The translations under genes and the position numbers were made by a program. A model generated the notes under the pieces. It had not been told where the DNA came from. It was given only the letters and a program-made list of their open reading frames with translations, and ran no database searches. Below, one piece after another: positions 5,936-25,252 of a DNA stretch of 25,778 nt (position 1 is the first letter of the stretch; every line of letters starts with the position of its first letter). The DNA is from a virus. The stretch lies in the IMG/VR virus record IMGVR_UViG_3300042455_002110, positions 1 through 25,778 of that record. One strand, written 5' to 3'.

Positions 5936-6526
5936 TTAGAACCTCAACGCGCCGGCTTCCACTTCGGCGGCTAGGGCGTCCAAAAATTCGTTTACCGCGT
6001 CCACGCCTGGTTGTCCGACCACGCGGTGTAGTTGGGTTCCTAACGCCCGCAAACGGGAAGCCAACCAATCCAACCCCGCTTGTACGTCCGCTTTCGCCAA
6101 TAGCTTGTCCATGTGGCGATCCAATTCGATTTGTAACCCTGCGGATTGGCGTTGCAACTTGCCAATTTCCTGGCGTAGTTTTTCCTTTACCAATTCTTCT
6201 TCGTCCGCGTCCAAATTCGGGCGGGCGGCTGCGGCCAGTTCGCTAACTCTGGTGTGTAGCTCTTTTATCACCACAAACAAATTGACGGTCGGAACGTCCA
6301 CGGCAATGTCGTAGCGTGCCCCAAATTCGTCAACTACCTTTTGTTGGCGTCCTGCCATTTCGCAATACACGCCCTTGGGGATTTCCGAAAGAATGGTACC
6401 CCGCAATTCGGCGGCCAATTCCCGTTGCCACCGTGTTAACGCCTGGGTTTCCCGGGTCGTTAACTTCTCACCCTTAATCTGCTTGGACCTGGCGGCGATC
6501 CCCGCCAATTCCACTTTTGGTTCCAA
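5936..6526 (-). CDS. Terminase small subunit candidate
   Basis: This 196-residue, highly charged helical protein lies immediately upstream of the large terminase. A segment at about residues 50-90 (PKGVYCEMAGRQQKVVDEFG, then a stretch ending in PTVNLF) resembles the DNA-binding N-terminal part of Nu1-like small subunits I recall from planctomycete phages, where a helix-turn-helix recognises the packaging site. A long coiled coil follows at about residues 108-140 (EEELVKEKLRQEIGKLQRQ), consistent with ring assembly. The start used is TTG with AGGCG about 8 bases upstream; a GTG 12 bases further in is an alternative. Family resemblance plus position make small terminase likely. The packaging site it would recognise was not identified. 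Confidence 0.72.
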   Translation of the reverse strand: MEPKVELAGIAARSKQIKGEKLTTRETQALTRWQRELAAELRGTILSEIPKGVYCEMAGRQQKVVDEFGARYDIAVDVPTVNLFVVIKELHTRVSELAAAARPNLDADEEELVKEKLRQEIGKLQRQSAGLQIELDRHMDKLLAKADVQAGLDWLASRLRALGTQLHRVVGQPGVDAVNEFLDALAAEVEAGALRF

Positions 6527-23389: not shown

Positions 23390-23859
23390 ATCGGTTGGAA
23401 TTCAAACTGTGCGTAATATCGCAATTGCTTTCCGATACCCACGCCTTGCAATGGACGCCCGACGAACAACCCGGCCTTGTGCAATATGGTTGCAAGGGGC
23501 TCGGCGTACTGTTCGCCCGCGTGTATCTCAATTCGGACCGTTCGTAAATCTCGAATGTTGTGATCGTGGTACAACTCGTCGATTAGGTTCAACGCGGTCC
23601 CAACATGCCACGCGGCGAAATCAATCTGTTCGCAATCTCGCAACGTTTTGTCGTACGTCCGAATCCGTGTTTCCGGTCGTATCAAACCGGCTTTGGCGGA
23701 CAAAATGAAATACGGGATTCCTCGGCGTGTTACGTGGTCCACGCGTGCCCGGAACAATTGCGATTGGTACAACTCCCCGGCGGGGAAAAACTCCATTGGG
23801 TCAACCGAAGTTTTCTTTTGCTTCGAACAACCCACCAACGCGAACACGTGCGGTTTCAT
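23368..23859 (-). CDS. DUF6884-type protein
   Basis: This 163-residue protein starts ALVGCSKQKK, with Cys11-Ser12-Lys13. It continues with FPAGELYQSQLF at residues 25-36, ILSAKAGLIRPE at 52-63 and YDKTL at 69-73. This order of motifs is that of DUF6884-type proteins found in phages and mobile elements. The family's biochemical role is not settled to my knowledge; distant links to nucleotide-base modifying enzymes have been discussed, but no preQ0-pathway genes are seen here. The ATG overlaps the initiator gene stop by 4 bases and follows GGGGGCAAC. The C-terminal half is mixed alpha/beta (VRIEIHAGEQYAEPL). Family recognition is good; function is open. Confidence 0.75.
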   Translation of the reverse strand: MKPHVFALVGCSKQKKTSVDPMEFFPAGELYQSQLFRARVDHVTRRGIPYFILSAKAGLIRPETRIRTYDKTLRDCEQIDFAAWHVGTALNLIDELYHDHNIRDLRTVRIEIHAGEQYAEPLATILHKAGLFVGRPLQGVGIGKQLRYYAQFEFQPIAKGGEA

Positions 23860-24863
23860 GTTGCCCCCTGCAACGCTCGGGTTGCTAGTTCGTCGGCCTG
23901 TTCGTCGGTTATCGCTTTCCCGCTTCGTCGCGCGGCCATCACGATTTGTCCACGAACCTGTTCAAACTTGAATTGCGATTTGGTCGCGCTCACGGCTGCG
24001 GCGCTGCGTTCGAGACTCTCGGCGGTTGGCAACTCCACCGGCCACGCGCCGTTGCGGATCCGATCCACCAACGCGCCCGGCCCGTCGAACCGGCGGCGGT
24101 GCGTGTTGTATTCGGCGATCACTTGCCCAACGGCTGCGGGATCCATGCCCGAGGACTTAGCGGCGGCAATGGTCGCGGCGCTGCGTTGCACCCCGGCGGT
24201 TTGCAACTCGGTGGCGATCCGTTCCCACTCGCCTGGTGCGTTTGTGCGTTGTGGGGTTTGACTTCCACCGGTTGGAATTTGACTTCCAAGGGTTCGTTTT
24301 TGACTTCCAAACTTTTCCAATTCCGCCCCCGCCGTTCGGGGTGGCGGATTCTTCGGATTCAACGGTAAAACCGGTATATAGTGTGGCTTCGAAATGAAGG
24401 GGCCAGCGCCGGGGCCAGCGCCGGGGCCAGCGCCGGGGCCAGCGCCGGGGGGGGTAACGTCGGCCAAACGTGCGGTTAACTGGTGAACCACTTTCATTTG
24501 GATCTCAACGCAAACCCCAACCACCGCGCCCCGGTCGTCCACCGTGTTGGTGGTGGTCACAATACCGGCGGTCCGAAGTCGGCGCACGGCCCGGCTAACG
24601 CTCTCGGCTGAACACTCCAACCGGTTGGCCAATTCCGCCCACGTGCCCACCCAACGCAAACCGGATAGGCCCATGGCGCGTTGGCTCGGTGAATCGACGA
24701 ATACCGCCAGCGTTCCGGCTACACGATACAACACCTCACCGGCCCGCGCTCCAATGGCCACGGCTGCGGACTCCAACGCCCTGGCGCGTTGTGCCCTTAT
24801 CGCGGTTTCGGCCACGCGTTCGGCTTCGGCGCTTTCGCCAAAATCTAGTCTTAATTGGTCCAC
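23856..24863 (-). CDS. Winged-helix replication initiator candidate
   Basis: This 335-residue protein has a helix-turn-helix/winged-helix region at about residues 71-104 (TWAELANRLECSAESVSRAV, then RRLRTAGIVTTT). A Gly-Ala-Gly-Pro repeat linker follows at 140-155, and a Pro-rich stretch to about 175. Three GSQ units spaced by 7 residues lie at 186-202. The C-terminal helical domain (ERIATELQTAGVQRSAATIA, then AAVGQVIAEYNTHRRRF) resembles parts of phage replication proteins. It starts with GTG after GGAGGAA. The combination of N-terminal DNA-binding domain, linker carrying iteron-like DNA repeats and separate C-terminal domain is like lambda O. No helicase or primase gene is in the window to confirm it. 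A transcription regulator is the alternative. Confidence 0.65.
   Translation of the reverse strand: MDQLRLDFGESAEAERVAETAIRAQRARALESAAVAIGARAGEVLYRVAGTLAVFVDSPSQRAMGLSGLRWVGTWAELANRLECSAESVSRAVRRLRTAGIVTTTNTVDDRGAVVGVCVEIQMKVVHQLTARLADVTPPGAGPGAGPGAGPGAGPFISKPHYIPVLPLNPKNPPPRTAGAELEKFGSQKRTLGSQIPTGGSQTPQRTNAPGEWERIATELQTAGVQRSAATIAAAKSSGMDPAAVGQVIAEYNTHRRRFDGPGALVDRIRNGAWPVELPTAESLERSAAAVSATKSQFKFEQVRGQIVMAARRSGKAITDEQADELATRALQGAT
24257..24309 (-). repeat. Three iteron-like direct repeats inside the initiator gene
   Basis: On the coding strand TGGAAGTCAAA occurs three times (24309-24299, 24288-24278, 24267-24257) with an exact 21-base period, all 11 bases identical. The middle copy is also part of an inverted repeat TTGGAA-GTCAAA-TTCCAA. 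AT-richer DNA lies just upstream in gene direction (24360-24398). Such phased repeats are typical of replication origins bound by the encoded initiator. Confidence 0.7.
24399..24454 (-). repeat. Four 12-bp tandem repeats plus G8 run
   Basis: Four exact copies of a 12-base unit (GGCGCTGGCCCC on the coding strand) and a run of eight C/G bases encode the Gly-Ala-Gly-Pro linker of the initiator candidate. Exact identity indicates recent expansion or slippage, so copy number may vary between related phages. Confidence 0.9.
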
Positions 24864-24889: not shown

Positions 24890-25252
24890 TTACGTTTCAC
24901 GAACCACGATTTGGTGTTGTGATTCCATCAATTTTTTCTTGGCCTTGTATTCGGGTGTTTTGTACCCCTTAACATCTTCCACCACTTCCACGCCCGATTC
25001 GTCGTGGTAAACGAAGTCGGCCACGTAGTGGACTACCTGAACCAATCGGTAACGGACTTGGCGGGTTAACGCGGAAATCTTCCCGGCTTGTTCGAGTAGC
25101 TTTAATTCCCCGTACCGCTTGGCTTCGCGTTTGCTCGGGAACTTAATCCCGTCCACCACGGTTTGTTTCGCCCCGTACTTATGGCCCTTGGTGTGGCGGT
25201 TCAACAACGTACGTGTATTCGTGCTTAATCGCCTTGCTCGTTTTTTTGCCAT
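24890..25252 (-). CDS. DUF1064 family protein
   Basis: This 120-residue basic protein has the DUF1064 motif set: KYGAKQTVVDGIKFPSKREA at residues 25-44, followed by KRYGEL; KLLEQAGKISAL; YVADFVYHDESG at 76-87; and VVEDVKGYKTPEYKAKKK at 90-107. The spaced acidic and Lys residues (E in REAKRY, D79, D93 and K95) are compatible with a PD-(D/E)xK-like nuclease fold, which has been proposed for this family in phages. It starts with ATG after AGAAGGG. It overlaps the upstream gene by 74 bases. A role in replication or recombination is plausible because the initiator candidate follows 26 bases later. Confidence 0.82.
   Translation of the reverse strand: MAKKRARRLSTNTRTLLNRHTKGHKYGAKQTVVDGIKFPSKREAKRYGELKLLEQAGKISALTRQVRYRLVQVVHYVADFVYHDESGVEVVEDVKGYKTPEYKAKKKLMESQHQIVVRET

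Follow-up and report, generated by a model that had tools for sequence, protein, structure and literature searches.

The replication origin lies inside the initiator gene in phage lambda and in Stx phages (PMC7466680, PMC6022878). The lambda iterons are 18-bp hyphenated inverted repeats (PMC6022878); the annotated ones, at 39034, 39054, 39078 and 39101, are each 18 bp long and follow one another at intervals of 20-24 bp. In Stx-phage relatives with six iterons, the extra iterons merely lengthen the protein, by 13 aa, and replication has been scored with silently altered Stx-phage iterons (PMC7466680). Related arrangements have been described in other systems: oriL of phage SPP1 is located inside gene 38, which encodes the replisome organizer gp38 and contains direct repeats to which this initiator binds (PMC6316719), and oriV of repABC plasmids is found inside the repC coding sequence (PMC3155836). 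Embedded iterons are an already known kind of element, and what is unusual in the locus described here is the relocation and loss of the repeat block among relatives.

In this study, we analyzed a stretch of viral DNA of 25,778 bases, an IMG/VR record (the window). Profile matches in the window (gpA-type terminase and lambda-type portal) pointed to a tailed phage, and an integrase was present on a related contig. The original prediction had placed a possible lambda-O-like origin inside its own initiator gene. The features of this region are as follows.

24890..25252, minus strand: upstream neighbour gene, DUF1064 / phrog_190 Holliday junction resolvase-like (profile matches; same neighbour in homologue genome G003)
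23856..24863, minus strand: gene of a 335-aa winged-helix protein, the proposed replication initiator, which holds the repeats (GTG start; AlphaFold; full-length homologue alignment)
24501..24734, minus strand: predicted winged-helix DNA-binding domain, residues about 44-121 (AlphaFold secondary structure; HTH_Crp_2 / MarR; Foldseek)
24240..24470, minus strand: predicted disordered linker, residues 132-208, pLDDT below 50, with both repeat systems inside (AlphaFold)
24399..24450, minus strand: 12-bp tandem array coding for (GAGP)n, 4.3 perfect copies
24363..24380, minus strand: TATATACCGGTTTTACCG, the same sequence in all three repeat-bearing phages but not in those that lack the block
24299-24309, minus strand: putative iteron core 1, TGGAAGTCAAA
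24278-24288, minus strand: putative iteron core 2, TGGAAGTCAAA, within a perfect 6-bp-arm dyad TTGGAA-N6-TTCCAA (24272-24289)
24257-24267, minus strand: putative iteron core 3, TGGAAGTCAAA
23865..24230, minus strand: predicted C-terminal helical domain, residues 212-333 (AlphaFold), which may contact the helicase or its loader

Three copies of TGGAAGTCAAA (in plus-strand form TTTGACTTCCA) were present on the coding (minus) strand at exact 21-bp steps, spanning 24257-24309, in agreement with the predicted repeats and their start at 24257. Each copy is read as xxT GGA AGT CAA Axx. The GSQ triplets use GGA AGT CAA in three of three cases and the identity reaches the preceding T and the following A, also as predicted. 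When up to one mismatch was allowed, the 11-mer had 4 matches in the window compared with 0.40 expected (none of 100 shuffles reached 4), and no other exact three-copy repeat of at least 9 bases was present in the window at any fixed period from 13 to 40. We then considered a synonymous null, with 200,000 resamplings in which amino acids were fixed and the phage's own codon usage was applied. Three identical 9-mers (the GSQ triplets) appeared in 0.22% of these resamplings and three identical 11-mers in 0.002% (about 2 per 100,000); under phage codon usage, the probability that all three GSQ are GGA AGT CAA was 5.7e-6. Core columns of the unit were invariant in 11 of 11 cases, compared with 2 of 10 other columns, a contrast that partly reflects amino-acid constraint and for which the synonymous test is the cleaner measure. 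An 18-bp dyad was also partly present in the units, with 3, 6 and 4 of the 6 arm pairs matching; it was perfect in the middle unit only, and its null P of 0.026 is post hoc, the best centre having been chosen.

The protein that contains these repeats was modelled with AlphaFold (ten sequences; mean pLDDT 67). The predicted order of winged helix (wHTH), disordered linker and helical C-terminus is consistent with the earlier placement of the repeats in the linker of a winged-helix protein. The winged helix matched the HTH_Crp_2 and MarR profiles below threshold, agreeing with the predicted fold, and Foldseek searches against PDB returned MarR-like, CodY and DnaD-N winged helices, all weak. Against viral proteins, Foldseek returned HTH proteins of replication type from phages, including a putative DNA replication protein, replication protein O and a RepA-like initiator. 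PHROG replication-initiation matches were weak, the best homologue reaching phrog_4617 at 4.6e-4 and the window protein itself phrog_2880 at 0.043, and no curated family matched the 335-aa protein above its cut-off. Because this assignment is based on fold, architecture and weak profile matches, we call the protein a probable replication initiator and go no further. Besides the resolvase-like gene, the other neighbour encodes a DUF6884 protein, and no P-like helicase-loader gene was found among the neighbours scanned. Within the C-terminal domain (23977-24209), two imperfect direct-repeat pairs of 16 and 34 bases, 174-177 bp apart, code for the similar segments ELQTAGVQRSAATIAAAKS and ELPTAESLERSAAAVSATKS.

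The 12-bp array predicted near the repeats was also found (24399-24450). It is a thing apart from the 21-bp repeats: a (GAGP)n array was present in all homologues at the same alignment place, with 4-7 units and varying codons. The middles of this array in relatives alternate among GGCGCT, AGCGCC and GACGTT, the former two being mutual reverse complements and the last departing from the GAGP protein pattern.

No close relatives could be identified by single-protein search in viral_contigs or the phage collection, and homologues were reached via the terminase, the repeat DNA pattern and then an alignment search. Nine distinct homologues were counted (G001, G002, G003, G004, G006, G007 and G008, plus contigs L049 and L050), with L054 and L055 carrying the same protein as G006; no copy of the gene was seen in the terminase relatives G005, G009, G010, G011 and G012, some of which are fragments. 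Besides the window, only G001 and G002, which are close to each other, had the block, in the form of GGAAGTGAA, GGAAGTCAA and GGAAGTCAA at exact 21-bp steps with the same core and codons. In these two genomes the block comes before the Gly-Pro array and a YIPVLP..NPPP segment, and in the window it lies behind both. The other seven homologues had no such residues or repeats at either linker place and no substitute repeats inside the gene, and they include those nearest by whole-protein identity (60-64%). Since seven homologues manage with neither repeat nor in-gene substitute, the block is dispensable for the basic role of the protein.

In the window and in G001 and G002, none of 200 codon shuffles equalled the three-copy 21-bp repeat, a result that no block-less gene gave. 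Unit 2 of the window and unit 2 of G002 agreed in 19 of 21 bases at different places of the protein, an agreement that 1 of 1000 synonymously recoded window blocks reached. Together with the synonymous null, these comparisons favor the idea of a constraint on DNA besides that on protein. The original prediction had named GSQ residues kept with free codons and spacing as evidence against it; the homologues gave the opposite outcome, in that codons and spacing were both kept or the whole block was absent. Thus, codon identity, exact period and a different site in the gene of relatives support the view that the block is a DNA-level element, and the fact that the repeats were moved or absent among homologues is easier to reconcile with such an element than with a protein motif. 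The three block-bearing phages fell on one side of a branch (support 95/94) in the wHTH tree, a grouping that the C-terminal tree did not resolve. Judged from these sequences, the simplest history would be an ancestral block followed by one loss and one relocation, and separate gains could also be envisaged.

To look for similar arrangements in other phages, we scanned viral contigs for a degenerate GGNAGYSAA occurring three times at 21 bp. The 56 loci obtained comprised 42 O-like initiators, forming one protein-similarity cluster, together with G001, G002 and twelve others. As the pattern was modelled on the window repeat, the letter likeness of the O-like group was selected for. This group matched PHROG 8540, 678, 391 and 4617 (E down to 6e-58), and the examples examined had GSE heptads directly behind the wHTH at 21-bp steps, the last step usually being 24, each unit with a 15-17-bp dyad. 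In L113, L118 and L151, the last step was one codon longer (GGSE; 21, 21 and 24 bp), which puts the final unit off the 21-bp phase. The corresponding protein of Aggregatibacter phage S1249, 64% identical to L118, had heptads and one 8-residue step with the residues GMPADST, which suggests that in the O-like family letters may change while the spacing stays. An earlier pattern scan gave 18 loci, among which only L003 and L006 were relevant; L005/L017 and L010, like the other remaining loci, were unrelated by context. A search of 257 Gb of cellular genomes with the paired 10-mer gave 19 loci, but a wHTH initiator gene could be recognised at none of them, and no prophage or host was found. The paired word also occurred in unrelated coding heptads of viral and cellular contigs. 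Among the twelve remaining loci of the degenerate scan, L157 (a 12.6-kb IMG/VR contig) had three 21-bp repeats GGTAGTCAATTGGTAAAAATC at 6031-6081, which lie upstream of a Rep_3 initiator gene at a distance of about 130 bp; this may be a plasmid origin on a contig classed as viral.

Other signals of an origin were then considered around the block. Duplex stability showed no lambda-type AT-rich tract beside the repeats. The AT-richer DNA that had been predicted there proved to be a weak feature: stability fell slightly below the genome mean at the repeats and at a segment 30-90 bp from them (z about +1.6), but the neighbouring (GAGP)n array was GC-rich and very stable (z -4.1). No DnaA box was present near the repeats, no Rfam match and no promoter-like site were found at the block, and strand secondary structure was ordinary (z -0.08). 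The cumulative GC-skew switch proposed as a check was uninformative and gave no support for an origin. The TATATACCGGTTTTACCG segment might serve as a weak unwinding element.

Taken together, the repeats are probably iterons, belonging to an origin that lies within its own initiator gene and works like lambda O. This part of the original prediction gains from the DNA-level repeats, the wHTH/linker/helical layout, the resolvase-like neighbour and the O-like parallels, but not from an AT-rich tract, a DnaA box, skew or a firm family match, and the repeats were absent in seven of nine homologues. In the proposed mechanism, the winged-helix domain would bind the three TGGAAGTCAAA units inside its own gene, and with two full helical turns between units, the bound molecules would all sit on the same side of the double helix. 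The resulting nucleoprotein complex could open nearby DNA, and the C-terminal domain could recruit the host replicative helicase. The linker can house such sites because it is predicted to be disordered and tolerates almost any amino acids.

The locus most likely works like the known initiator-gene origins, each of which it resembles in part. It shares with lambda gene O the position of mid-gene iterons behind an N-terminal DNA-binding part; however, no sequence kinship could be detected, the unit and its core are different, the window has no adjacent AT-rich tract, its dyad is perfect in one unit only, and the block shifts its position between relatives. Membership of the lambda O family is not claimed, because a firm sequence match, the AT-rich region and a P-like gene among the scanned neighbours were all missing. 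The O-like initiators (PHROG 8540/678/391; S1249, L113, L118, L151 and L156) have, as in the window, a wHTH directly followed by in-frame 21-bp linker repeats, with 7/7/8-residue (21/21/24-bp) steps and quite different letters in S1249. On the other hand, they contain HTH_36 (PF13730) and have strong PHROG matches, whereas the window protein matches these families weakly or not at all, they have no reported (GAGP)n array, and one of their steps is 24 bp. SPP1 is similar in its direct repeats within the initiator gene, but possesses a DNA unwinding element as well as another origin, oriR, at a different location. The repABC origin also lies inside an initiator coding sequence, but repC lacks iterons and contains an extensive A+T-rich region, whereas the window has iterons and no A+T-rich region.

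Other explanations of the block were weighed against an embedded origin. It could be a site at which the same protein or another phage regulator acts for autoregulation or silencing. The DNA-level constraint does not reveal what it serves, the wHTH is at least as MarR/Crp-like as initiator-like, and block-less relatives manage without the block. However, three exact 21-bp direct repeats about 550 bp downstream of the start codon would be atypical operators in a place that contains no promoter-like site, and the helical C-terminal domain and the O-like parallels favor replication, which makes a regulator site rather unlikely. We consider it quite improbable that GSQ heptads are a linker motif of the protein, which arose by tandem duplication and whose identical codons are leftovers. 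Such a history agrees with the reading frame of the repeats and with a family linker that consists of repeats in any case, all members having (GAGP)n arrays. On the other hand, the codons would have had to outlast the divergence of the spacers (11 of 11 core columns versus 2 of 10 others invariant), the same cores appear at another linker position in other phages, the block is missing from seven homologues, and the linker is predicted to be disordered.

Finally, the repeats might be due to chance or to an unrelated DNA function, such as a recombination or packaging word, as the occurrence of the paired word in unrelated coding heptads could suggest. This is very unlikely, since within the phage group arrays of the word are confined to this gene, where they occur in three genomes with fixed spacing. 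Returning to the embedded origin, a further version of it appears doubtful: that the block is a portable cassette, placed on either side of the Gly-Pro array or discarded, with wHTH specificity changing along, so that relatives would have switched origin without changing the gene frame or neighbours.

If the repeats are indeed iterons, our results would add an uncharacterised phage group, which has no close relative in the searched phage collection, to the phages with in-gene origins. A natural experiment could be provided by the homologous initiators, in which the block follows the array, precedes it or is missing, and it would allow the joint movement and change of an origin and the protein that binds it to be studied. 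This locus also suggests a rule for searches, namely in-frame 21-bp repeats in the disordered linker that follows a wHTH; applied blindly, it yielded mostly O-like initiators.

In two block-less genomes, we observed 28-bp direct repeats with GGATC/GATC words (TGGAGCTCGATCGATCCGCCGATGCGTT; GGCCAATCAAATTCGGCGGATCAACCGC), located at 14569-14831 of L068 (G006) and 17057-17140 of L066 (G004). They are apparently intergenic and are followed by a common AAACTTACTTACC stretch, and might represent an alternative origin or an operator array; no such intergenic repeats were found in the block-less G003, G007 and G008. In addition, the contig of one terminase relative (G010; L076-L077) contained SPTRKRG/ASEG-type coding repeats, which we take to be typical of Gemmata-like planctomycetes and which offer a clue to the host of these phages.
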